37,539 nucleotides of DNA from a virus. The stretch lies in IMG/VR virus record IMGVR_UViG_3300050034_000546, positions 1 through 37,539 of that record; one strand, written 5' to 3'. Made by a program: the position numbers and the translations under genes. Of the stretch, positions 12,902 to 32,324 are shown one piece after another. How positions within the stretch are numbered: position 1 is the stretch's first letter; each line of letters starts with the position of its first letter. The notes beneath the pieces are model-generated. The model did no database searches. It saw only the letters and a program-made list of their open reading frames with translations, and had not been told where the DNA came from.

Positions 12902-13131
12902 TAGGGTTGGTTGGTTGTGGCGGCGGCGCGAGCGACGGTGAGTTTCAAGAGTTGATCGATCACGAGTTGGGCTTGCTTGGGCGTGTAGCAAACCGCGATG
13001 CGAGCGTTTTTGTGGAAGGTAAGGAGCTGCTCGATCTCGCCGGTCTGGCGATTGATCGAGAAATTAAAATCCGTCAGATGAAAAAACGGCGGGACGGGCA
13101 GCGGATTTCCGGCTTCCGATTTATCACTCAT
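12901..13131 (-). CDS. Hypothetical small protein between MuG-like and tail terminator genes
   Basis: 76 residues. MSDKSEAGNPLPVPPFFHLTD, then FNFSINRQTGEIEQLLTFHKN and AQLVIDQLLKLTVARAA. The gene overlaps its neighbours at both ends (ATGA at 13131, TAATG at 12901), which argues that it is translated as part of the head-tail joining block. No family recognised. Confidence 0.6.
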   Translation of the reverse strand: MSDKSEAGNPLPVPPFFHLTDFNFSINRQTGEIEQLLTFHKNARIAVCYTPKQAQLVIDQLLKLTVARAAATTNQP

Positions 13132-13754
13132 GAGAGGAGTCCTCCGTAATTGGCATCCAAAAGCGCATCGAAAAAGTCTTTGGCACCGTCTGTCAAAACC
13201 TGCGCATAGACTTCGTTGCTCGGAAGCAACGTGCGGTCTTGTTTGAGGAGAACGCTCTCGACCAGCCAGTAAAACACAATCGTCTGGCGATCCTTGCCGG
13301 TGCCGCGATTGATCACGAGCGCATGAGCGCCATCCTTGCCAAAAGTAATGGGACGCAAATCGCCGAAAGCCTGGGCCACTTCGGAAGCTCGTTTGCCGTA
13401 CGCAGCGGCATTGGCGGGAATGGTGAGGTATTTTCCTTCTTTCGGGACGATGGTGATATCGCCTGCCACACGGCCAAAGCCGGGGCTCGTGATATCGACC
13501 GTGGCACCGTTGCCGTCGCTAGTGCCGCTGACGCTCTCGGCGGCGCGGCTGAGATGCCCGGTGGGCTCCGCACCCAGACGATTAGCCGTGGCGTGGCGAG
13601 TTTGCGCCAATTGAACCAGGTAATCCCGCGTCGTGACGACGGCGCGATTCTCGATAAATTTATTAATCCGCGTGCGGTCGGTCATCCCGCCGATGAGAGT
13701 CTGCAATTTAGGGCTCGCCAGATCGGTATAGGAAAGTTGGAGACCAGCACTCAT
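13128..13754 (-). CDS. MuG-like virion morphogenesis / tail completion protein
   Basis: 208 residues. The segment RINKFIENRAVVTTRDYL, then QTRHATANRLGAEPTGHLSRAA is characteristic of the Mu gpG (phage virion morphogenesis) family, which completes the head-tail joint. The family's usual length is about 150-180, so it is slightly long. It overlaps the MuF-like gene upstream by four bases (ATGA at 13754) and the next gene downstream, matching the F-G order of Mu. Confidence 0.6.
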   Translation of the reverse strand: MSAGLQLSYTDLASPKLQTLIGGMTDRTRINKFIENRAVVTTRDYLVQLAQTRHATANRLGAEPTGHLSRAAESVSGTSDGNGATVDITSPGFGRVAGDITIVPKEGKYLTIPANAAAYGKRASEVAQAFGDLRPITFGKDGAHALVINRGTGKDRQTIVFYWLVESVLLKQDRTLLPSNEVYAQVLTDGAKDFFDALLDANYGGLLS

Positions 13755-14893
13755 GAGAGCACCTCCACGGCATCTATAATCGATTGAATATTTCCGCGAA
13801 TCCGGCGCGAGCGATCCGTGGAATTGCAGAGCGTCACGAATCGAGTGAGGCGATTGCGGATCTGCGCGGCGTTACTGAAATCGCGACGACCGGTTTTATA
13901 AGCTTCCCTGGCATCTTCCATAGCACGGGAAAGACTGGAGCGAAGCGGGACCAAATAATCCCCTTCTTGCTTCATCTCCTCGCGAAAAGCCTTGAGCAGC
14001 TCCGGATCAAATTGTTTCGCATCGGCCTTGAGCCCTTCAAGAAGATCGACCGGCATGGCCTTGCCACCTTCGTCGTCGTCAATCACGCCGAGTTCGATAC
14101 ACTCCGCACGGTCGCGCTCCTGCCAGCCGAATCCGCTATTGAAGGCGAACGGCGGGCAACTCGTGTCGAGAGCGTCGTCGAAAGTTGAACTGTCTCCGAG
14201 GGCTTCCCAGATCGGATCACCCTTGGGTGCGATCATGCGGTCGCCATCGACCAGTTCGCCGCCACAGGCTTCAAAGCGGCTGGGCCAATCATCATCGGGC
14301 ACGGGAATAATCGCGTCCTTGGGACCGCGCCGGTACCCGCGTGGGATCTGGCGCGTATAGATCCGCAGCAACTCATAGCAAGGGAATTGCCAGAGCCGTT
14401 CCGGCTCATTGCCAGCGATCTGCAAACCGCGATTCATCGCGAGGCGATATTGCGTCGTTAAAATTAAATTAGTCCGTTTGAAGCTGGAGAAATCTTTCAA
14501 TTCCCCTGGTTCCACCGGCTCGACGTTTTCGCCGGGGAAACCGTTCTCGGGCGTGTAACCGCAATCGATCACCAACTGGCGCAAATCGGCGCGAGCCGTG
14601 GCGAGATTGATTTTGCCGGAGACCATGTTGTCAGTGAGATCCTTGATCTTTTGCAGGATCTTCATTTGCTGGAGCCGCGCCGAAAAAACGCTTTGGTCGC
14701 GAATCTCGGCGGCGAGTTGGGCTCTCCTCTCGGGCGTGAATAATCCCTCCGGAGGGAAAAACGGAGTCGACCGCACCGACGCCGGATTGCGGATCTGCGC
14801 GGTGGATAAATTTGTCGGCAGTAATCCGCGATCAGCGGCCCATTGCAACGCCTCTTCAAAGGGATGGGGGGGAGAGGAAAGAAAGTCTGGCAT
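13751..14893 (-). CDS. MuF-like minor head protein (gp30-like)
   Basis: 380 residues. The opening PPHPFEEALQWAADRGLLPT matches the PEEA...FRxK start of MuF (SPP1 gp7) head proteins; a helical region (60-160) and a conserved core (residues 169-340, WQFPCYELL through EAYKTGRRDF) follow. MuF proteins bind the portal inside the procapsid. In Mu this gene follows the portal; here it comes after the capsid and DUF1320 genes, a rearranged order. Residues 169-339 have a second copy at residues 80-230 of the gene at 26165-26869, almost identical over the last 50. Family call is by pattern and neighbourhood. Confidence 0.6.
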   Translation of the reverse strand: MPDFLSSPPHPFEEALQWAADRGLLPTNLSTAQIRNPASVRSTPFFPPEGLFTPERRAQLAAEIRDQSVFSARLQQMKILQKIKDLTDNMVSGKINLATARADLRQLVIDCGYTPENGFPGENVEPVEPGELKDFSSFKRTNLILTTQYRLAMNRGLQIAGNEPERLWQFPCYELLRIYTRQIPRGYRRGPKDAIIPVPDDDWPSRFEACGGELVDGDRMIAPKGDPIWEALGDSSTFDDALDTSCPPFAFNSGFGWQERDRAECIELGVIDDDEGGKAMPVDLLEGLKADAKQFDPELLKAFREEMKQEGDYLVPLRSSLSRAMEDAREAYKTGRRDFSNAAQIRNRLTRFVTLCNSTDRSRRIRGNIQSIIDAVEVLS

Positions 14894-15346
14894 TTACATT
14901 CCTTCCTCGGCGCGACGGCCAAAGTGACGGTGACGGTTCGTGGTGAAAGTAGGTCCCAGCGGCGGTTGCTGCTCGGCGGAATCAGCGGGAGAATCGGGAA
15001 TTTCGAAGCGAATCTTGTGATCCACAATGCGATTCAAATAGGAGAGATCTTGGTCCGCTTGCTTGGCTTCCGAAGGTTTCAGCTCGCTATTGATATAGTC
15101 TTTGACCTGACGAATGATCATTCGTTTGGCCAGACCATTGAGCGAATTAGGGATCTTCGTCGGGTCCGCGTCCAGGCGATTCCCAACAGAAATACTCGCC
15201 CGGATTTGAGCCACTACATCCGCGATAATCTCCGGCAACGGATCCGCTTCGCCGCGAGCGGCGGCGGCAGATTGCGCCGTCGCGATATAGCTGCTGATCT
15301 TCGCCGTCTTGACGGACGCGGTCGTTATGGAGGTCCAGTTGCTCAT
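14894..15346 (-). CDS. DUF1320 / Mu gp36-like head-tail protein
   Basis: 150 residues, helical, with IIADVVAQIRASISVGNRLD, DADPTKIPNSLNGLAKRMII and VKDYINSELKPSEAKQADQD. This is the recognisable layout of Mu gp36 (DUF1320) proteins: a short helix bundle ending in a basic tail (residues 130-150), thought to act at the head-tail joint. It lies between the capsid gene and the MuF-like gene. A heptamer-repeat leader and an 8-bp-stem hairpin (15383-15405) precede its ATG. Confidence 0.7.
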   Translation of the reverse strand: MSNWTSITTASVKTAKISSYIATAQSAAAARGEADPLPEIIADVVAQIRASISVGNRLDADPTKIPNSLNGLAKRMIIRQVKDYINSELKPSEAKQADQDLSYLNRIVDHKIRFEIPDSPADSAEQQPPLGPTFTTNRHRHFGRRAEEGM

Positions 15347-15356
15347 GATATAGAAT

Positions 15357-15429
15357 TTTCAGTTACCAGAAGTCAGTTATCAGCCGGAGGAATCGGACCT
15401 CCGGCGATAACTGCGTAGCTGGGAGCTGA
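15357..15429 (-). promoter_or_regulatory. Hairpin and heptamer repeats between capsid and DUF1320 genes
   Basis: GCCGGAGG (15383-15390) pairs with CCTCCGGC (15398-15405) around AATCGGA, a perfect 8-bp stem. Heptamer repeats flank it on both sides (CTGATAACTGACTTCTGGTA on the minus strand, and GTTATCGCC region). It follows the highly expressed capsid gene in the same operon. No U-run follows the stem, so it is more likely an RNA processing or partial-termination element than a strong terminator. Confidence 0.55.
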
Positions 15430-16374
15430 TCAGCTGATATTGAGGAGCTGTGAAGCGGGGGCGTTGGTGACTTCAACGTCTTCGGTCCAGTCGAACTTCG
15501 CGACTTCGCCACGGCCATCGGGCGTGACATAACTACCGGGTTTCATCCACTGTCCGGCGAGCCGGAAGGTTTTCATGAAGCTCGGATCGCGGCGAGTGGG
15601 GGTTGCCAAACGTGCGAACACAATCACCTTCGTATCAAGCACGAAATTGATATTTGCGGCAGCGCCTTGATCAGCGGAGTCGAACACCATGTAGCTCGTA
15701 CGAACGTCGGGGGTACCGACAAACAACTTCGATGCGAGTCCTTCGCTCGGCACTGCGAGACCTACACTACCTTCTCCACCGGTGCCCACGACGAACTTGC
15801 TCCGAACGTTGGCGTTGTTTTTGAAACCGCGCCAAGCGGAAGCACCAAACAAAACCCCGACCCCCATCAAACTACCGTATTTTGCCGCCTTGATAACGGC
15901 GAGAATCGCCGCATCGACATCATCGACGGGATCGGTAGTTCCGGCGCCGCTCCATGTCTTATTGACCGTATTGGTGATTGCACCAATGGCCTTGTTGATA
16001 ACACGGGTTTCATGCTGAAGCGCGGCGGCTTCGGCAACGATTTGCGCGCCTTCCTGCAACAAGTTTTCCAGAGTCGCTTCTTCGGCGGATTCCAGATTAT
16101 CGATTGGGAAATCGAGTGCATTGGGCTGGCAATTGTAAAATGCATCCGAAGCGCTGAAACCAATCTGAGCCGCTTGACCGCCCAGAGCACGCCGGGTATC
16201 CGGAATGCGGAAGCGATCCTGCTCGGTATAGACTTTGTAACGGCCCACGATGGTGGGAACTTCCACAGTTGGGGCCAGAAAATCGGCCACCGGCTGCACA
16301 TTTTGTTGAGCGGCACCTTGCGCGAATTCCCGGATGACCGGTTTGGCGCTGATGCTTTCTAGCATGCTAGGCAT
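15430..16374 (-). CDS. Major capsid protein (HK97-fold candidate)
   Basis: 314 residues, well suited to an HK97-type shell protein: a helical N-terminal arm (MLESISAKPVIREFAQGAAQ), a strand region (VGRYKVYTEQDRFRIPD), a long spine helix about residues 90-130 (EEATLENLLQEGAQIVAEAA) and beta-rich domains to the end. Order protease, scaffold, decoration, capsid is as in Mu-like phages. The leader upstream of the ATG at 16374 is A-rich with no Shine-Dalgarno, like that of the decoration gene, and both products are expected to be abundant. Confidence 0.75.
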   Translation of the reverse strand: MPSMLESISAKPVIREFAQGAAQQNVQPVADFLAPTVEVPTIVGRYKVYTEQDRFRIPDTRRALGGQAAQIGFSASDAFYNCQPNALDFPIDNLESAEEATLENLLQEGAQIVAEAAALQHETRVINKAIGAITNTVNKTWSGAGTTDPVDDVDAAILAVIKAAKYGSLMGVGVLFGASAWRGFKNNANVRSKFVVGTGGEGSVGLAVPSEGLASKLFVGTPDVRTSYMVFDSADQGAAANINFVLDTKVIVFARLATPTRRDPSFMKTFRLAGQWMKPGSYVTPDGRGEVAKFDWTEDVEVTNAPASQLLNIS

Positions 16375-18409: not shown

Positions 18410-20026
18410 TCATTTCTTTGATTTCCTGTTTTTGGTTTTCTTTTTTGAAACGGGTTCAGTGGCAAGACCGTTGCCCGTCGCCGCGCCAAGGATTTTTTGG
18501 AGGGCATCGACGGACTCATTGGAAGCGCCGACTTTCTTGGCGAGCGCAGGCACATCGGCTGAGAGTTTTTTAAGCGCCGGAATAAGTTGATCATCAGGAC
18601 CGGCTAAAATCTTCAAGAGCCGATCCCAGACCGGCTTGAGCGATTTCGCATCGGCAGCATTCAACATCTTCGAGGCTTGGGCTAAGAACGCATTGTCCGC
18701 GTCGGCATCGGAGGCATTGAGCAGCGCCCGATTCGCGACCGCGTCGCCATCGTCCTGAGAGCTACCCTCGGGTTTGCCAATGGTCGCGTCCCCGGCCATG
18801 GCCCGTTGCGCCGCTTTATCGACCGGAGCGCGGTCGGAGAGATCGTAGCCGGTGCGCTCGGAAAGTTGGGAAGCTTCGATGGCGTAGCCCGCCTCCGCCA
18901 ATTCCTTGGCATGCGTCACCACGTCGGTCACATTGGTTTCCTCCTTCGCGGCCAGTTCGAAATAGGCGAGTGGCTTTTGACCGGGGAACTTTTGAGCAAG
19001 GAATCCCTTGTCGATTTGCTTTTGGAGCAGCTCCGAAATCTTCTCGGCTTCGGCTTGGGCTAATTCGTCAAAAGTATCCGCGTGAGCGTGACCGGCCAAA
19101 GTGCCGCTGCCACTGGCGGTGAGCATGGTCAATTTGCCGCTGGTTCCCGCCAGCACGATCATTTCGTCGTTGTACTGGATGTGGTCGCGGAAAGGATTCG
19201 TCCCCCGGGCACCGGCATCGACCGTCTGCACTTTGCTGCCAGCGGGAATCGTCCCACGCATGTCGCCGATGATTTGTTCTGCCAGGGCTTGATATTTGTC
19301 CTGCTCGTCTTGCGGCATGTTGGGAGGCAGTTCGATAAAGATCGGAGGAATGCCAAACGTCTCGACAAAGCCGTCCCAATCTTTTTGCGAGAGGTTTTTC
19401 CGCAAGAAGGCATAGATCCCAATCACGTCAATAGGATCGCACTCTTCGCGAACGATAAACCGCTCAGGATCGATTTCCACGACTTGCGACGATTGCGGAC
19501 CACCGGGAACCGAAAACGCGCCGTTATTATAATACCAGTTTCCGAAGAGCCCATCCCGCGCCCAATTCCACTGTGGAACCGGTTCCAGATGGGTAATAGA
19601 TCCATCCGCCGCGTAATGTTTTTCCAGATGCGCAAAACCACGGAATGAAGCCAGAGCGAGATGTCCCACCGCGTCGCGCAGGTTATCGATTGCATCGTAA
19701 ACTTCGCGCAATGCCGTGGCTTGCGCTGTTGCCTGTGCCGCTGTCGCGCCCTTAGGCAGTTCCTTATCGGGAATCGTCTTGATCGACCAGTCCAGCTTTT
19801 CAATCGCCGAAAGCCGTCGCGCCTTGACCCCGCGCAACACCGGATCACGCTCCTCAATGAAGCGATAGGTCCACATCAAATCGGACACGATGCCGATCTG
19901 ATAATTTTGCAGCCGCGCAAATACCAGGGGAAAGGTCAACCCGATCAGCGGATTGTAATATTCCCGCCAACGGCTGGCGCGCTTGAGCTCGGCAGGGAAA
20001 TAAGCCGGAACTTGAATCAAGCTCAT
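18410..20026 (-). CDS. Portal protein (DUF935, Mu gp29-like)
   Basis: 538 residues. The N-terminal third (RLQNYQIGIVSDLMWTYRFI, VLRGVKARRLSAIEKLDWSI) and the middle (ASFRGFAHLEKHYAADGSIT, WNWARDGLFGNWYYNN) carry the hallmarks of the DUF935 portals of Mu-like phages: specificity for an abundant Asp/Arg-rich wing and a helical stem. A Lys-rich tail (SKKKTKNRKSKK) ends the protein. It forms the dodecameric channel for DNA packaging. The ATG at 20026 overlaps the small Cys-rich gene upstream as ATGA. Confidence 0.8.
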   Translation of the reverse strand: MSLIQVPAYFPAELKRASRWREYYNPLIGLTFPLVFARLQNYQIGIVSDLMWTYRFIEERDPVLRGVKARRLSAIEKLDWSIKTIPDKELPKGATAAQATAQATALREVYDAIDNLRDAVGHLALASFRGFAHLEKHYAADGSITHLEPVPQWNWARDGLFGNWYYNNGAFSVPGGPQSSQVVEIDPERFIVREECDPIDVIGIYAFLRKNLSQKDWDGFVETFGIPPIFIELPPNMPQDEQDKYQALAEQIIGDMRGTIPAGSKVQTVDAGARGTNPFRDHIQYNDEMIVLAGTSGKLTMLTASGSGTLAGHAHADTFDELAQAEAEKISELLQKQIDKGFLAQKFPGQKPLAYFELAAKEETNVTDVVTHAKELAEAGYAIEASQLSERTGYDLSDRAPVDKAAQRAMAGDATIGKPEGSSQDDGDAVANRALLNASDADADNAFLAQASKMLNAADAKSLKPVWDRLLKILAGPDDQLIPALKKLSADVPALAKKVGASNESVDALQKILGAATGNGLATEPVSKKKTKNRKSKK

Positions 20027-20193
20027 GCCAAACCTCCGGCCAAAGCCAAAACGAGGATCTCATCCTCAATGCCAATGCCATTGCAAACGCACGGAACACC
20101 GTTGCAATTTGCGCACAGCCATGAAAACCGGCCAACATAGCAGACAAAGGTTTCAAGCGGCTTAAAAAGGCCTCTAGCGCAGATCGTTTTCAT
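20023..20193 (-). CDS. Small Cys-rich protein between terminase and portal genes
   Basis: 56 residues from the ATG at 20193, which overlaps the TGA of the terminase gene; a longer frame to 20316 is not preferred. It contains CYVGRFSWLCANCNGVPCVC, a Cys cluster suggestive of a small zinc knuckle, and ends with a hydrophobic helix. Its ends overlap both neighbours as ATGA, supporting translation as part of the packaging operon. Function unknown. Confidence 0.5.
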   Translation of the reverse strand: MKTICARGLFKPLETFVCYVGRFSWLCANCNGVPCVCNGIGIEDEILVLALAGGLA

Positions 20194-21638
20194 CCGAGCA
20201 CCGCCCTCTTTCGCCGTTCCTGCCACTTTTGCGCGGCGCGGGTGTTCGATACGGGGATAAACCCGCCGGGAATCGTTGCTTTCTTCCCCGCATGGAGAGC
20301 GAGGGCATGCGCCCAAAAATAATCCGCGTGACCGGCTTCGTTGGACTCGGCTACGAACCGGATATTTCCCGCCGCCGTGGTTTCCTTCCGAATTGCCCGG
20401 TGATGGGCAATGATGCTTTTATCGTCGGGAATGCGTACTGATTTATCCTCAAATCCCGCGCGTAACGGATAGGCCAATTCTTCTTTAACCGCGCCCGTGA
20501 AGGTGATGGCCTCGACTTTGTATTCGCCATAGCGTTTCTGCGCCCGCTCCACGAGCTGGCGGCCAATCCCGGTATTGTCGATGCAGGCCCGGCGCAACCG
20601 TGGCAATTGAAGTAGCTCGTAAAGCCGCGCTTCCTGTTCGTCGAAGGTTTTATTCTGAAGCGAGACCAGATGCACCGTGGGCCGTAATCCGCCAATGGCT
20701 TCGACAACCCAGAATACCGTCAAATCCTTGACGCGGCCAATGTCACCGCCGAGATAGAGATTATTCTGACTCGCCGCCAATTCGGAGAGGGTCTTTTCCC
20801 ATTTTTCATCGGGCTTGTATTTGCAACCATCGATCAGTTCATAGGAGAGAAATGCGGATGCGTCGTCGGCAGGCACGCACATGTATTCCTGCAGGAACGA
20901 TTCGTCATCGGCGCAACCGGCCTTGATGAATGTGAAATAATCTGCTTCGTCCATCTGCTGACGTTCGTCGTCGAGGGGCAGTTTGGATTGGAGCTTGTAG
21001 AGGAAACCCTGATCGAGAGCGGTCTGCAGAGTGACCGTATGGAGGCTAAATCCCTTCGGATTGCCCTTGTGCTTGATTTCGAGAATGAGCTGATTGAAAA
21101 AGTTGGCGCTACCACGATGGGTGGAAAAGATCTCCATCGAACCGCCCCAAGTGATGCCAGGATAGGCAATCGAATAGAGTTTGCGCGGATCGGGATGGAG
21201 CGCGAATTCGTCTAGCGTGCGATCTCCGCGTTTACCCGCCTGGGCATCGGGATTGCTGCTCATCGAATGAATGCGCAGACCTGTGGCCATGGCGAGGACA
21301 TAGGCGCTGTGACCGTCGTCATCGATCACGCGCTCGCCGAGATCTTTCGCTCCGAGATTGAGGAGCGATGCAAAGTTCTTGCAGTCTTCGATCAGTAACC
21401 GCGCCTGCAAATCGTCCCGGCTGGAAATCCACGCATCATTGCGCGCCTCTTTGACCGCTTTGGTCGAGACCAGCCGATAGGCATGGCCCCACGTCCAACC
21501 GATCTGGCGCCCCTTCTCGGCGATCTTGAGCCGCGAGTTGTCGCGAATCCATTTGACCTGGTATGGCAACAAAAGGAGCGCGTCGCGCTTGGGAACGATC
21601 TTGGCTTTCCCTGCGAATTTGGGAGCGCGAGCCGTCAT
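20190..21638 (-). CDS. Terminase large subunit (Mu gp28-like)
   Basis: 482 residues from the ATG at 21638, overlapping the small subunit stop as ATGA; the longer frame to 22136 is a read-through of the neighbour. The ATPase has an unusual Walker A (KGRQIGWTW) and a Walker B-like RTLDEFALHPDP. The RNaseH-like nuclease is seen as three acidic positions: YLGGDIGRVKDLTVFWVV, RACIDNTGIGRQLVE, and HADYFWAHALAL. It cuts and translocates phage DNA into procapsids; in Mu-like phages this packages by headful from host-flanked copies. Confidence 0.85.
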   Translation of the reverse strand: MTARAPKFAGKAKIVPKRDALLLLPYQVKWIRDNSRLKIAEKGRQIGWTWGHAYRLVSTKAVKEARNDAWISSRDDLQARLLIEDCKNFASLLNLGAKDLGERVIDDDGHSAYVLAMATGLRIHSMSSNPDAQAGKRGDRTLDEFALHPDPRKLYSIAYPGITWGGSMEIFSTHRGSANFFNQLILEIKHKGNPKGFSLHTVTLQTALDQGFLYKLQSKLPLDDERQQMDEADYFTFIKAGCADDESFLQEYMCVPADDASAFLSYELIDGCKYKPDEKWEKTLSELAASQNNLYLGGDIGRVKDLTVFWVVEAIGGLRPTVHLVSLQNKTFDEQEARLYELLQLPRLRRACIDNTGIGRQLVERAQKRYGEYKVEAITFTGAVKEELAYPLRAGFEDKSVRIPDDKSIIAHHRAIRKETTAAGNIRFVAESNEAGHADYFWAHALALHAGKKATIPGGFIPVSNTRAAQKWQERRKRAVLG

Positions 21639-22132
21639 AGTAACTTGGCAGCCTCCTCGATTTCCTTGAGCGTCTCGGGAGTCAATCCGCCCTTGGATTT
21701 CACCGATTCGAGTTTCGATTTGGCTTCGGCCATTTTCGCTTCGAGCAGCGCCAGCTTGCGTTTGTCGACTTCCAATTTGCTCGCTGCCAATTCGCAACGC
21801 TTCAGGGCGACGATCTCCTTGACGGTCAGTTCGCCATACACTTTCTCGAACTCCCGCTGGGAGAGCCCGCGCCGGATCTTTCCCTCGATATCCGCTGGCG
21901 AGGATTTCTCCGAGGCTTCCGCCGCTTCCTTGGCACGTTGAATGCGCCAGTGCAACCCATACGAGGAGACCAATCGCGACACTGAGGATATGGACGTGCC
22001 GACACCCCACTTCTCGCAAAGCGCTAGTGCCGCCTTGAGCGAGATGCAGTTGTCGATGAGCTCGATCATGAACTCGTCGAGCCGTTGCCGCGCCCGGAGT
22101 TGACCTTCCAATGTGTCTGGCTTGGTTTTCAT
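21635..22132 (-). CDS. Terminase small subunit (Mu gp27-like, DUF3486)
   Basis: 165 residues. The N-terminal half carries a helix-turn-helix-like segment (ISLKAALALCEKWGVGTSIS, then SVSRLVSSYGLHWRIQRAKE), and the C-terminal half is a Lys/Glu coiled coil ending with a SKGGLTPETLKEIEEAAKLL tail. This layout and position, immediately before the large subunit, match Mu gp27 (DUF3486). It binds DNA and stimulates packaging. Confidence 0.75.
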   Translation of the reverse strand: MKTKPDTLEGQLRARQRLDEFMIELIDNCISLKAALALCEKWGVGTSISSVSRLVSSYGLHWRIQRAKEAAEASEKSSPADIEGKIRRGLSQREFEKVYGELTVKEIVALKRCELAASKLEVDKRKLALLEAKMAEAKSKLESVKSKGGLTPETLKEIEEAAKLL

Positions 22133-22387
22133 TCATCGCTTCAAAAGTTGGACTTCACCGGCTTCGGTAATGAGCCAGCGTGGTTCGTCGTCGCCAAACT
22201 CGCCTTCCATGATCGCAATGAGCTTGTGACCGGACAGGTAGGCGATGTGTTCGTCAAACGTGGCGGCGCTCACAGCTGGACGCACCCGAGAATCGAGCGC
22301 GCACCAAAGGGAGTTTTCAGGCAGAGCCTGCGGAGAGGTATCCTTCAGAATCTGCAAAATGACGCGGCGTTCGTCGGATGCTTTCAT
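22133..22387 (-). CDS. Winged-helix-like protein (Mu gp26 position)
   Basis: 84 residues, MKASDERRVILQILKDTSPQ then FDEHIAYLSGHKLIAIMEG and RWLITEAGEVQLLKR. The alternation of short helix and a terminal LITEAGEVQL strand pair suggests a winged helix. Small proteins of this kind occur just before the terminase small subunit in Mu-like phages, and a role as packaging accessory or regulator is inferred. Confidence 0.6.
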   Translation of the reverse strand: MKASDERRVILQILKDTSPQALPENSLWCALDSRVRPAVSAATFDEHIAYLSGHKLIAIMEGEFGDDEPRWLITEAGEVQLLKR

Positions 22388-25374: not shown

Positions 25375-25375
25375 C
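25359..25375 (-). terminator. Hairpin GCCACGC/GCGTGGC at end of repressor operon
   Basis: A 7-bp perfect stem with a 3-base loop beginning at the stop of the secreted-protein gene. No U-run follows, so it may be a weak or processed terminator or a member of a small palindrome family (a related CCACGCC ... GGCGTGG lies in the coding sequence at about 29247). Confidence 0.4.
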
Positions 25376-26163
25376 TAAAGCATTGTTCTGAGATCTTCCG
25401 CCAGCGGAACCACCAACTCCTTAAACTTCGCCGCATCCTTGGCGGCAAGCGCATCCGCCGCCGCAATGAAATGCTCCAGCCACTGCTTTTGCTCCATTGT
25501 GCAAGGCCGTTGCAACAGTGCTTTAGCTTGCTTCTTCTCAGGAGTCCATCCATCAGCGATCGTACGTTCCCTGGGATAGACCTTATACCATGATCGCGTC
25601 ATGGGATCCGTGGAAACCTTAGAGTGGACGGTGCCAACGTCTCCACCATAGTGAACGTCGACGTCGCCGTTCGTAAATGCGAGAGGTTTTGCTATTTCGG
25701 CCCATTGTGAGAGCAGTACGCTCTGGCTGATAGACGTGATATCGGAGAGGCGCAGAGGATCTCCTGCTACTGTTTCCTCGGCGGCGGTTGCAATCGTCTT
25801 AATCGGAGCTGGAGCACTCGCTTGCTCGGGTGTGAGAATTTCCGAGACGGTGATCGTCCATGTCGGCGAGCCAGAACCGACTTGCAATTTGAAAGCGCCG
25901 GGCCCGGAGAAGGTTAAAGGCGCACTCGGGAACGCCGCCTTATTGTAGATCTGTTTTCCATTTTTATAGAGGAAAATGTTAAGATCGTCGCCGCTTCCTT
26001 GAATAGCAACCGAGCACGTGCCAGTCGTTTCAAAACTAAAAACATTATCGCTGCTTTTATTGCTATAGACGGCGATCTCTCTCGTCGTCAGCGTGGTATC
26101 CTGAGCGCGAGCTTGCAAAATGACGCAAGCAGCCAAGACCAAAATTAGTTTGATGATTTTCAT
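25375..26163 (-). CDS. Secreted hypothetical protein in the repressor operon
   Basis: 262 residues from the ATG at 26163, one base after the preceding stop; the longer frame to 26217 is a read-through. A signal peptide is clear (MKIIKLILVLAACVILQARA). The mature part starts with a beta-rich domain (residues 20-105, FSFETTGTCSVAIQG, then GPGAFKLQVGSGSPTWTITV) of the kind found in small beta-sandwich binding domains, then a helical region ending in AADALAAKDAAKFKELVVPL. It is co-transcribed with the repressor, so probably made by the lysogen. Lysogenic conversion or blocking of adsorption is inferred. Confidence 0.6.
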   Translation of the reverse strand: MKIIKLILVLAACVILQARAQDTTLTTREIAVYSNKSSDNVFSFETTGTCSVAIQGSGDDLNIFLYKNGKQIYNKAAFPSAPLTFSGPGAFKLQVGSGSPTWTITVSEILTPEQASAPAPIKTIATAAEETVAGDPLRLSDITSISQSVLLSQWAEIAKPLAFTNGDVDVHYGGDVGTVHSKVSTDPMTRSWYKVYPRERTIADGWTPEKKQAKALLQRPCTMEQKQWLEHFIAAADALAAKDAAKFKELVVPLAEDLRTML

Positions 26164-26164
26164 T

Positions 26165-26869
26165 TTATATTCCTTTTTTGAAATCGCGTCGACCGGTTTT
26201 GTAAGCTTCGTCCGCATCGGCGATGGCGCGGGAAAGACTGGAGCGAAGCGGAACCAAATAATCCCCTTCCTGTTTCATTTCCTCGCGAAAAGCCTTGAGC
26301 AGCTCAGGATCAAATTGTTTCGCATCGGCTTTAAGTCTTTCCCGAAAAGAATCCGACATTTTTTCATCATTCTCACCGATTACTCCTAGGTCAATAGACT
26401 CTTCACGATCAATATCAGAGGTTGCCATTCCCGATCCGAAAACAAACGGAGCATGTCCCACGTCAAGCCCATCGTCAAATAACTCAGAGGAGCCCAACCT
26501 ACTCCAAATATCGTCACGTTTCCAAGCAAGCATACGATTTTCATAGAATTTTCCACCGGCCATTTTCCATCTTTCTGCCAAAGGGACACGTTCGGTGGGC
26601 CGCATGCTTACCAATTCTGAACAGGGAAACTGATAAATAAAAGTATCTTCAAATGCTTCTTTCCATGAACGCTCTCCTAATCGGAGGGCATCGCAGGCGT
26701 GCCTTAAATCGTTACTTATTTCCCAAATGGCCAGCCAAGACTCCATACCCTCAATAAAATAATAGTCAGTTAATGAAATTTCCTTACGCTTCCACATCGC
26801 ACAAAGATTCCTTATTGAAAAAGGACCTTGCTGAACCCCGTCTTTAGCAATGTAACATTTCCAGCCCAT
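26165..26869 (-). CDS. GYF_2-like domain fused to C-terminal part of the MuF-like head protein
   Basis: 234 residues. Residues 1-55 match GYF_2 (DUF4339), with GVQQGPFSIRNL and IEGMESWLAIW, a small domain thought to bind Pro-rich or peptide partners. Residues 80-230 are homologous to residues 169-339 of the MuF-like protein at 13751-14893: they diverge at first (QFPCSELV against QFPCYELL) and become nearly identical from DAKQFDPELLKAFREEMK to GRRDF. DNA of the matching ends is also above 90 percent identical, so gene conversion is recent. It lies two bases after the repressor stop. It may be an immunity decoy; no catalytic residues are seen. Confidence 0.65.
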   Translation of the reverse strand: MGWKCYIAKDGVQQGPFSIRNLCAMWKRKEISLTDYYFIEGMESWLAIWEISNDLRHACDALRLGERSWKEAFEDTFIYQFPCSELVSMRPTERVPLAERWKMAGGKFYENRMLAWKRDDIWSRLGSSELFDDGLDVGHAPFVFGSGMATSDIDREESIDLGVIGENDEKMSDSFRERLKADAKQFDPELLKAFREEMKQEGDYLVPLRSSLSRAIADADEAYKTGRRDFKKGI

Positions 26870-26871
26870 TT

Positions 26872-27234
26872 TTATTCCCCTGCCAGCTTTTTAAGCCGTT
26901 CCTTTAACTCTTTCAATTCCTTCTCGGCTTTTTCGGCGCGTTGACGCCAGTTAACGCCGTAATTCGGACTATCCTCATGGACAACCGGTGTGACTTTAGC
27001 TGTCAGTAAAGGTGAAACAGAGGCATTCATTATCTCGTCAACAGTCATTCCCAAAGCAGTGGCGATTTTGGATAGATTCTTTAATGTTGGTTCTCGACCG
27101 TGGAGGTAGCGCGAAATATCCGGCTGACTACATCCACTCGCTACCGCTAGCTCCTGTTGAGTCACCCCCTTTTCTTCCATCACCTTTTTGATGACGGTCG
27201 AAATAATACTCTTAGGTATATTTTCTCCTTGCAT
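26872..27234 (-). CDS. XRE-family repressor (Mu c-like role)
   Basis: 120 residues. A lambda-type HTH is seen at residues 25-46 (VTQQELAVASGCSQPDIS, RYLHG), continuing with LKNLSKIATALGMTVDEIM, and a coiled-coil C-terminus (residues 95-118) suggests dimerisation. The gene is divergent from the Ner-like gene with only 18 bases between starts, so the two promoters overlap and share operators. It is the natural lysogeny repressor. No Shine-Dalgarno is seen before the ATG, although an AAGGAG lies just after it. Confidence 0.75.
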   Translation of the reverse strand: MQGENIPKSIISTVIKKVMEEKGVTQQELAVASGCSQPDISRYLHGREPTLKNLSKIATALGMTVDEIMNASVSPLLTAKVTPVVHEDSPNYGVNWRQRAEKAEKELKELKERLKKLAGE

Positions 27235-29560: not shown

Positions 29561-31396
29561 ATGTCCTCATTCTCCTCTCTCCAACTTGCCACCGCTCCCA
29601 ACTCCGTGATTGAAACCGCCTATTTTTGGCAAGAACAACTCACCCCCGTTTTAGGAATGAAACGCGGTGCGGTGAAAGCTGTCGAAGCAATCGCCGCGCG
29701 ACTCGGCGTCTCGCGCACGACCGCCTTACGCAAGTATTATGACCTCAAAAAAAAGGGCGTGAGCGGATTAGTCGACAACCGCCGTCTTGGCCCGGACGCC
29801 TGGAATATGACCACCGGTAGCGTGTTGCCCGAGTCGGATATAGAATTACTTCGTCTCTATATAGAAAAAAATCAACGTTCCAGCGAAGCCGGTATCCGCG
29901 CCATGAAACAGAATTGGCGCGAAGGCAAAATCACCACGACGCAACCGATCAATCTCGCCACGGGCTATCCGCAAGGTTGGAGCGACGGAAATCTCAAACG
30001 TTACGCGCCGTCCAAATTTGAACTCAAAGCCTCGCGCATTGGCCGCACCGCCGCCGCGAGCGAACGCCGTCTGGTCTACACCACGCGCAAGGATCTCTAC
30101 GTTGGGCAATTCTACCTCTTCGACGATATGTGGCATGACCACTTCGTCAATAATCTCGATCTGCAAAAGACGGGCCGTCCGTTGGAATTTCACGCGCTCG
30201 ATCTCGCGAGTGCCTGCAAGTTTGCCTGGGGAATGCGTGTCCGCACCGAGAATGCGGATGGCTCCATGGAGTCCCTCAAGGAAGCCGACATGCGATTTCT
30301 CCTTGCCGCCGTGCTGGCGGGTTACGGATATCATCCGCAAGGCACCACGCTTGTCGTCGAACACGGCACCGCCGCGATCAAGGATTGGCTCGAATCGTTT
30401 CTCTACGACGTCACGGGCGGTCTTATCAAAGTGGCCCGCAGCGGCATGGACGGTGCAGCGGCGCATGCAGGTCAATACGCCGGTCGTAGCAAAGGCAATT
30501 TTCGGTTCAAGGCCGCTCTCGAATCCCTCGGTAATTTGATCCACAACGAAATGGCCGCGCTCCCGGCGCAGACCGGCAAGGACCGCGACCATCGCCCCGA
30601 GCAGCTCCACGGCCTGCTCAAGCACAATGACGCGCTTCTGATGGCGATCTCTCAATTGCCAGCCGAGCGCATCGACATGTTGCAATGGCCCATGTTGACC
30701 GTCCAACAATTCCGCGTGATCGCAGCCGAAATCTATATGCGGATTAACTCCCGCACCGAGCATAACCTCGAAGGTTGGGACATGAACTATCGGCCCGATA
30801 CGCGGCTCGGCGGCATGCGCAAGTTGTCGCCACTGGAAGTCTGGCAACCGGGACGCCGCGCGTTGATTCAACTCCCCATCGAACACGCCGCCCGGATCAT
30901 CGGCACCGAGAGTGGCAAAGAACGTCTCACCCGCTCGGGAATGTTTAGCTTTACCGATAGCGAACTCAGTGGTGACGAATTGCGCTTCGATGCCCACGCC
31001 CTGGCTGATCGCGAAAAGTATCTCGTCGTCGTCAATCCCTTCTGGCCCGAGGCCGCGTTCGCCTTCGACTCCAAGGATCGATTTGTCTCCGTCTGTGCGC
31101 GTATCCACTCCGTTTCCCGCGCCGATCAGGAAGCTATCAACCGCGAATGTGGAGCCGCTGCCAAACTCGAAGCGATCCGCCTGACTCCCTTGCGTGCGCG
31201 CCACATGGCCGAGGCACGCGAGAAAGCCGCAATGCATAGGAATAACGCGAATGTCCTTTCCGGCGCGCCAGTGACGCCCGAGGAAAAAATCCGCAACCGT
31301 ACCGAACTTAATTTATCCGCGAAAGCGGACGCGGCTCTCGCCGCACAAAACGCAAACCAAACCGAAAGTGATTCCACAGATGACGACTCCTATTAA
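29561..31396 (+). CDS. DDE transposase (MuA-like)
   Basis: 611 residues. Residues 40-75 carry an HTH (AIAARLGVSRTTALRKYYDL), then a helical domain to 170. The catalytic core follows: first acidic residues D188/D189 in FYLFDDMWHDHF, second position at E267 in LVVEHGTAAIKDW, third at E321 in KAALESLGNLIHNE. Spacings of about 78 and 54 fit MuA-type cores, but the second acidic residue is Glu rather than Asp. A beta-barrel domain (400-530) and an acidic C-terminus that would contact MuB follow. It performs strand transfer during integration and replication. The next gene starts inside its last codons. Confidence 0.85.
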   Translation: MSSFSSLQLATAPNSVIETAYFWQEQLTPVLGMKRGAVKAVEAIAARLGVSRTTALRKYYDLKKKGVSGLVDNRRLGPDAWNMTTGSVLPESDIELLRLYIEKNQRSSEAGIRAMKQNWREGKITTTQPINLATGYPQGWSDGNLKRYAPSKFELKASRIGRTAAASERRLVYTTRKDLYVGQFYLFDDMWHDHFVNNLDLQKTGRPLEFHALDLASACKFAWGMRVRTENADGSMESLKEADMRFLLAAVLAGYGYHPQGTTLVVEHGTAAIKDWLESFLYDVTGGLIKVARSGMDGAAAHAGQYAGRSKGNFRFKAALESLGNLIHNEMAALPAQTGKDRDHRPEQLHGLLKHNDALLMAISQLPAERIDMLQWPMLTVQQFRVIAAEIYMRINSRTEHNLEGWDMNYRPDTRLGGMRKLSPLEVWQPGRRALIQLPIEHAARIIGTESGKERLTRSGMFSFTDSELSGDELRFDAHALADREKYLVVVNPFWPEAAFAFDSKDRFVSVCARIHSVSRADQEAINRECGAAAKLEAIRLTPLRARHMAEAREKAAMHRNNANVLSGAPVTPEEKIRNRTELNLSAKADAALAAQNANQTESDSTDDDSY

Positions 31397-32324
31397 TCCC
31401 GAACCCATGATCGATCCTGAAATCCACCCCGTCCGCGCCGACGTCATTGAACGGCTGGTCGCCTTCAAAAAACAGAGCGGACTCTCGTTTGAGGAAATCG
31501 CGAATTTGATTGGCTCCAGCGCTGCGCAGGTCAATCGCGCTGTGAATAAAAAATTCAAGGGCGACCCGATTACGTTCGAAGCCAAGGTCGAGGATTTTCT
31601 CAAAAACGAGCCCAAGCGCCGTCGTGATTCCAAAGTGCTTTTCGAGAATGATTTTTCCCGCGAGGTCGGAAACTTCCTCGAAACGGTTCGCCGCACCAAC
31701 GATATTGGAATTGGCCATTGCCAAGCGGGCATGGGCAAGACCAAGGGCATTACGCTCTACGTTATTAAAAATCCCACCACGATCAGCGCCGAGTTGCCGA
31801 TTTGGGACGCGGGTGTGAACGGCGTGGAACGCATACTCTTCAACTGCATTGAGACTCGCGGCTGGGACCACAACACCAGCCGTGGCGATTTCATCTCCGC
31901 CCGGCTCTCAGGCAGTCATCGTCTCATCATCATCGACAACGCCCACAAGCTGAGCTTCCGGTCACGCCAGTGGCTTTTTGATTTCCACGATCAGAGCGGT
32001 TGCCCCATCGCACTGATCGGCAACCCCGAGATCCTCGAAGAAATCAAAAAAAACGATCAGCAGTTTTCCCGCGTCGGGTTGCTGTGTGAATTTCGCGGCC
32101 AGTCCGCGTCGGTCGATGCCGAAAGGATGATTAAGATCCACTGGCCCGACGCCGAGGGAAAACTCGATGGTCTACCGATCCAAGTGATCAAGGAGCAGGG
32201 CCACCTGCGCTCTCTGCGCAAGCACCTTGAACTGGCACGCGACATCGCGACCGCGTTCGACAGCCCCGAGGAAGCCTTCCGCGCCGCCCACACCAAACTC
32301 GTCACCAACTACAAACTCAAATAG
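31380..32324 (+). CDS. MuB-like target-selection ATPase
   Basis: 314 residues from the ATG at 31380, overlapping the transposase end; a GTG at 31368 is also in frame. N-terminal HTH (residues 32-58, LSFEEIANLIGSSAAQVNRA). Walker A at about 117-122 (AGMGKTKG), Walker B-like LIIIDNAHKL at 183-192 and a sensor-like IALIGNPEI further on. MuB binds DNA, selects targets and activates the transposase. The Walker B has Asp-Asn where Asp-Glu is typical, so hydrolysis may be altered. Ends in a TNYKLK tail. Confidence 0.8.
   Translation: MTTPINPEPMIDPEIHPVRADVIERLVAFKKQSGLSFEEIANLIGSSAAQVNRAVNKKFKGDPITFEAKVEDFLKNEPKRRRDSKVLFENDFSREVGNFLETVRRTNDIGIGHCQAGMGKTKGITLYVIKNPTTISAELPIWDAGVNGVERILFNCIETRGWDHNTSRGDFISARLSGSHRLIIIDNAHKLSFRSRQWLFDFHDQSGCPIALIGNPEILEEIKKNDQQFSRVGLLCEFRGQSASVDAERMIKIHWPDAEGKLDGLPIQVIKEQGHLRSLRKHLELARDIATAFDSPEEAFRAAHTKLVTNYKLK

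Follow-up and report, generated by a model that had tools for sequence, protein, structure and literature searches.

An orphan MuF head-protein gene in the repressor operon of Mu-like phages of Verrucomicrobiota, a candidate self-derived decoy made in the lysogen

We found that a Mu-like phage carries, directly behind its repressor gene, a derivative of its own MuF minor head protein, and that three more such phages or prophages, all from Verrucomicrobiota, have an orphan MuF gene in the repressor operon as well, each apart from the structural MuF. The repressor-linked orphans are most likely MuF derivatives expressed in the lysogen. The fact that three related viruses did the same, apparently independently, suggests that the dormant virus uses its MuF copy, and the likeliest role that we infer, put forward tentatively, is that the copy interferes when related phages infect or assemble their heads.

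The window (the whole stretch of DNA analysed) is an entire IMG/VR virus record, 37,539 bases long, and its gene set is Mu-like. Its plus strand encodes a divergent early module with a MuA-type transposase (29561..31396; phrog_310, E 3.6e-18) and a MuB-type DNA transposition protein (31368..32324; phrog_296, E 9.6e-29). The minus strand encodes the terminase large subunit (20190..22136; phrog_5909, E 1.8e-36), the portal protein (18410..20026; Portal_Mu, PF06074, E 1.6e-42), a head maturation protease, the major head protein (15430..16374; phrog_1005, E 1.8e-25), MuF and a gpG-like gene. The repressor operon, also on the minus strand, sits between the transposition module and the head module. 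Its first gene encodes a Cro/C1-type HTH repressor (26872..27234; HTH_3, E 1.7e-13), its second the chimera studied here (26165..26869, 234 aa, hereafter P0001), and its third (25375..26163) a protein with a hydrophobic, signal-like N-terminus (KD19 1.89) and no Pfam family match. The repressor stop and the chimera start are 2 nt apart and the chimera stop and the third gene 1 nt, in keeping with the preliminary description of the chimera as the second gene of a repressor operon. Operon and expression claims, for the window and for its relatives, are read from gene spacing alone, and a promoter scan of this operon gave a score not above that of shuffled sequences. The chimera lies outside the head and packaging module, 11-12 kb from the structural MuF. 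Repressor and chimera (26165-27234) are AT-rich, with a GC3 of 0.40-0.45 against about 0.62 in the phage, a composition pointing to an imported immunity cassette.

The chimera is an intact open reading frame in which a GYF_2 domain, a MuF-derived body and a MuF tail follow one another. GYF_2 (PF14237) matches residues 6-52 (26714..26854, minus strand) at E 1.2e-9, with 38.3 bits against a curated cut-off of 25.8, and the modelled N-terminus aligns with annotated GYF-domain structures at Z 3.5-5.3. MuF homology begins at about residue 56, and the MuF-derived body covers residues ~56-165 (26375..26704, minus strand). A blastp comparison with the phage's own MuF (13751-14893) pairs chimera residues 78-233 with MuF 167-342 at 51% identity (E 2e-49), and a score of E 2e-26 against a MuF core profile indicates that the core of the domain is present. 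The fusion of a GYF_2-like domain to a homologue of the resident MuF is as first described; the homologous part, which had been called the C-terminal half of MuF, comprises more exactly the MuF domain itself and the tail. What GYF_2 replaces is the helical region at the N-terminus of MuF, which the chimera lacks. In the structure model (46 rows; mean pLDDT 81) a helix at residues 45-72 joins GYF_2 to a confident MuF-like body, and the helical tail is of lower confidence than the body. Predicted viral structures resembling the body were head-morphogenesis and minor capsid proteins, and no family stood out clearly in a comparison with solved structures. No toxin domain was recognised in the chimera or in the phage's own MuF (P0002), and a scan of the phage's own proteins for a PPG motif as GYF ligand returned a single, uninformative match.

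Body and tail have different histories. Against the phage's own MuF, body residues 78-176 are 47% identical in nucleotides and 41% in amino acids, and the roughly 53 residues of the tail (179-231) are 87% and 92% identical. By blastn the tail (26179..26329, minus strand; query 541-691) matches 14026-13876, that is, a segment of the MuF gene (13876..14026, minus strand) that may have been donor or recipient, over 135 of 151 ungapped nucleotides. The near-identity of the last 50 or so residues after a divergent stretch is thus borne out, and the DNA identity, first given as over 90 percent, is slightly lower, at 89%. Where the residues are identical, the same codon is used at 36 of 48 positions in the tail and at 8 of 37 in the body (Fisher p 1e-6), which argues that the similarity of the tail is due to recent exchange or copying and not to constraint alone; local gene conversion, or a recent copy, is accordingly supported as had been suggested. 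As to the direction of exchange, the GC3 of the tail (0.51) is intermediate between that of the orphan body (0.39) and that of MuF (0.67). The tail differs from its MuF counterpart by 11 synonymous codons and three replacements, all three inside one five-codon patch (NG86 dN 0.046, dS 0.47), and three or fewer replacements would be expected with p 0.05-0.014 under a neutral orphan branch with 5-6 synonymous changes, a modest test that suggests a tail under constraint. The body is no closer to its own MuF (41%) than to the nearest MuF of other phages (42-53%), and 7 of 32 family-conserved positions are broken in it, a higher number than in any other of 44 rows. A pattern search for the 94-aa MuF tail found it nowhere else, although related MuF proteins repeatedly show weak motifs of the tail (KFDPxFLxxLR).

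The structural MuF itself (13751..14893, minus strand, 380 aa) has no Pfam or PHROG match as a single sequence; a 67-row alignment of its relatives matches Mu gpF by hhalign (Prob 94.5, E 7.8e-8), with the PP motifs aligned. Its identity is supported by the gpG-like gene that comes next (13128..13754, minus strand; named by position and used as a marker of structural context), as gene G follows F in Mu, and by relatives that carry effector domains typical of MuF proteins. The gene does not lie just downstream of the portal gene and is preceded by the genes of the major head protein and of a 150-aa product; proximity to portal or terminase, found for 85-87% of MuF genes, is a usual and not a strict feature (PMC5576092). 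MuF and the gpG-like gene follow the major head protein in the window (13128-16374) and the portal in Mu, and in this phage group the two genes seem to have moved as a pair (F-G). Structural MuF proteins of the group carry C-terminal effectors (PBECR2, Gln_amidase, which is papain-fold toxin 1, and inorganic pyrophosphatase; L060:9554-11077, L069:510-3116 and L023:9248-10873). The MuF effector theme thereby extends to Verrucomicrobiota Mu-like phages whose MuF escapes Pfam.

Orphan MuF genes beside a co-directional repressor are few and specific. A single-sequence search for relatives of the chimera returned one viral locus, no genome locus and nothing among phage GenBank records. The MuF-core search gave 74 loci in viral records and 29 in genomes, those with a name being nearly all from Verrucomicrobiota, a second alignment search gave 53 viral loci on records partly shared with the first, and whole-record scans covered 100 viral records and 388 Verrucomicrobiota genomes; many loci come from fragments and metagenome assemblies. 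Structural neighbours stood beside 213 of the 250 MuF-core ORFs collected, and an orphan occurred in only about 2-3% of related phage records. Counts of orphans linked to a repressor are lower bounds, since repressors with no HTH_3-like domain would be missed.

The three further cases are a 252-aa orphan (L201, in G207) that overlaps its repressor (6796-6353) by 4 nt and is followed by a gene with a signal-like N-terminus; a 196-aa MuF derivative (L202, in G320) that follows an S24 repressor and a lipoprotein-like gene; and a 311-aa derivative (L263, in G485) that overlaps an HTH_3 repressor by 1 nt (TGATG). MuF-derived genes with a different N-terminus beside the repressor, which the preliminary description had predicted for related prophages, thus exist in three cases, and all three frames are intact and not frameshifted remnants. 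Their termini vary: a Zn-ribbon-like N-terminus, none, or a C-terminal extension. The N-terminus of L201 has two CPxC pairs, Zn-ribbon-like by eye, and no significant Pfam family; L202 and L263 have no N-terminal domain of the GYF_2 or Zn-ribbon type. The motif PPF..GSG is kept in L201 and missing in L263. In its core L201 shares 70% identity with the structural MuF of its phage (dN 0.26, dS 1.3) and L202 shares 51% with that of its own (dN 0.42, dS 2.2), in both cases with dS near saturation and with a contribution from the constraint on the MuF partner. Hydropathy indicates no transmembrane segment in any repressor-linked orphan. The layout is common to these loci (the window; L201/L200/L302; L202/L303; L263/L244): a divergent transposase on one side of repressor and orphan, terminase on the other, and elsewhere a structural MuF with a gpG-like gene behind it. 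Between the window and L201 operons there is no other clear homology, the third genes being unalignable and the repressors matching at E 0.06. A fifth phage-borne orphan, a divergent MuF-like gene (L262:4118-4741, in G506, which also has a structural MuF), lies 44 nt downstream of a tyrosine integrase. With the window left out, three of four phage-borne orphans are at a repressor, for which the chance is roughly 0.0005-0.004 if the slot makes up 2-4 of 40 genes (binomial, small sample).

Two chromosomal copies were also seen. An intact 226-aa MuF-like gene (L103:9644-10324) lies in a Verrucomicrobiota chromosome between era-like and uvrA-like genes, with no phage genes recognised within 10 kb, and is possibly a domesticated orphan MuF; another (L264:4465-4983) is cut by a stop and is an apparent remnant. 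A second copy in G278 was rejected as an orphan, as both copies adjoin gpG-like or portal genes, and a weak second match in G029 (E 0.002) was left out of the count.

In core trees the orphans are scattered over separate clades, on long branches. L202 groups with its own MuF (SH-aLRT 98-99), L201 falls near its own (93-94, an open fork) and so does L262 (90-92), while P0001 sits on a long branch with no supported position. A smaller tree held four orphans (P0001, L201, L202 and L262; L263 was left out of the trees), and its starred branches require each of them to be placed separately. Neither the pairing of P0001 with P0002 (p 0.49) nor that of L201 with its own MuF (p 0.37) was rejected by AU tests. 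Since the orphans fall in separate clades, some near the MuF of the same phage, recruitment of MuF appears to be repeated, and the arrangement at the repressor most likely arose several times, within the resolution that a short core allows.

The slot after the repressor is highly variable in related phages and often holds lipoprotein-like, signal-bearing or membrane proteins. GYF_2 proteins occur upstream of the late genes in 3 of 50 records (G023, G014 and G048), in G023 directly after an S24-type repressor; they share a GYF_2 N-terminus with the chimera and differ from it by transmembrane segments and the lack of a MuF part. One possible reading of the window's chimera is a GYF_2 protein of this slot in which MuF has taken the place of the membrane part. 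The loci L108:1468-2121, L109:1465-1971 and L110:1192-1644 hold such GYF_2 transmembrane proteins of related Mu-like phages, a recurrent protein of the lysogeny slot.

How might such a gene act? The orphan and the repressor would share transcription in the lysogen, at a time when no MuF, portal or capsid would be made. When a related phage infects, the orphan would bind the partners of MuF (portal, procapsid or packaged DNA) by means of the MuF domain and the self-matching tail, and, with the N-terminal helices lost or another domain in their place, would give defective heads as a dominant-negative decoy. Once the prophage itself is induced, the repressor operon would fall silent and the orphan would be outnumbered by MuF made late. 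In favour of this reading are the slot and layout common to four phages, the tight coupling to the repressor, the separate clades of the orphans, the mostly synonymous change in the tail and the lack of predicted transmembrane segments. The MuF protein of SPP1, gp7, sits at the portal in just 1-2 copies per capsid (PMC5576092), so that a decoy would need few molecules, and interference with assembly by a prophage-encoded protein has a precedent in Tai (PMC11364771). Several observations count against the proposal. The MuF surface of the chimera may be altered, given the broken conserved positions; a binding surface common to the orphans is in doubt because one keeps PPF..GSG and another does not; and self-targeting would depend on the tail, the body being no closer to the resident MuF than to others. 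The differing N-terminal additions have no explained role, and the orphan is rare among related records. A fuller proposal is that copies of these phages' own MuF were converted, several times over, into an inhibitor that is expressed in the lysogen and blocks head assembly or the delivery of the genome, and that gene conversion keeps this self-derived decoy immunity in step with the resident head protein. We hold this possibility as more doubtful than interference as such.

Other explanations have to be weighed against this. The orphan may be an ordinary lysogenic-conversion gene, in which the MuF domain is reused as a binding module with no effect on phages. The repressor-linked slot gathers such morons, the GYF_2 transmembrane proteins of G023 and G014 among them, and both the AT-rich composition and the intact chromosomal gene L103 would fit; this reading leaves the repeated recruitment of a head protein and the tail match to the resident MuF unexplained, and we regard it as unlikely. 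It is rather improbable that the orphan is a cargo that is made before induction, enters the heads of its own phage by way of MuF domain and tail, and delivers its N-terminal domain to the next host. MuF proteins of the same family do carry C-terminal effectors, as in MuF toxins (PMC5576092, PMC5512222), and the chimera keeps the MuF tail almost unchanged, but effectors are normally fused to the late structural gene and not sited in a repressor operon, the binding domains GYF_2 and Zn-ribbon are not known to be toxic, and two of the orphans have no such domain.

An orphan might instead neutralise MuF or MuF-effector proteins injected by a related phage, as an immunity protein built from the fold of its target. 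Effector-bearing MuF proteins circulate in the phage group, expression in the lysogen would suit immunity and putative immunity genes for MuF toxins have been described, yet those are small ORFs adjoining the toxin (PMC5576092) and the window's own MuF has no recognised toxin domain, which makes this quite improbable. Least of all do we favour decaying duplicates, that is, MuF copies that landed near the repressor by recombination and are now drifting. Long orphan branches, the conserved residues lost in P0001 and the broken chromosomal copy are what drift would leave; against it, the four repressor-linked frames are open and closely coupled, the changes in the tail are mostly synonymous, and dN is well below dS for L201 and L202, with the reservations given above.

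The proposed decoy resembles Tai, a set of single genes on prophages or satellites that stop the assembly of other phages' virions, in its presumed logic of defence through assembly interference. The targets of Tai are tail proteins; Tai has not been described as derived from a head protein of its carrier and is proven by plating and microscopy (PMC11364771), whereas the orphan is such a derivative and is known here from sequence. PADLOC 2023, which predates the Tai paper, left the chimera unmatched and matched only the repressor, as generic HTH. With the MuF superfamily and the MuF polymorphic toxins (Mu gpF, SPP1 gp7; PMC5576092, PMC5512222) the chimera shares its domain, and effector fusions occur in this phage group too; known MuF genes lie in the packaging or head module and vary at the C-terminus, whereas the chimera lies in a repressor operon and has its N-terminus replaced.

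If the decoy reading is true, a prophage would use part of its own virion in the defence of its host. Domesticated retroviral genes provide capsid-derived restriction, in which a viral structural gene is kept on the host side to block related viruses; the orphan would be its bacterial counterpart, by analogy only, as the viruses and the mechanism are others. It would likewise open a way to study what the MuF domain does, of which little is known, as the orphans show which part of it can act by itself. Even without a role in immunity, one would not have expected a head protein to move repeatedly into a repressor operon, and the matter can be tested.
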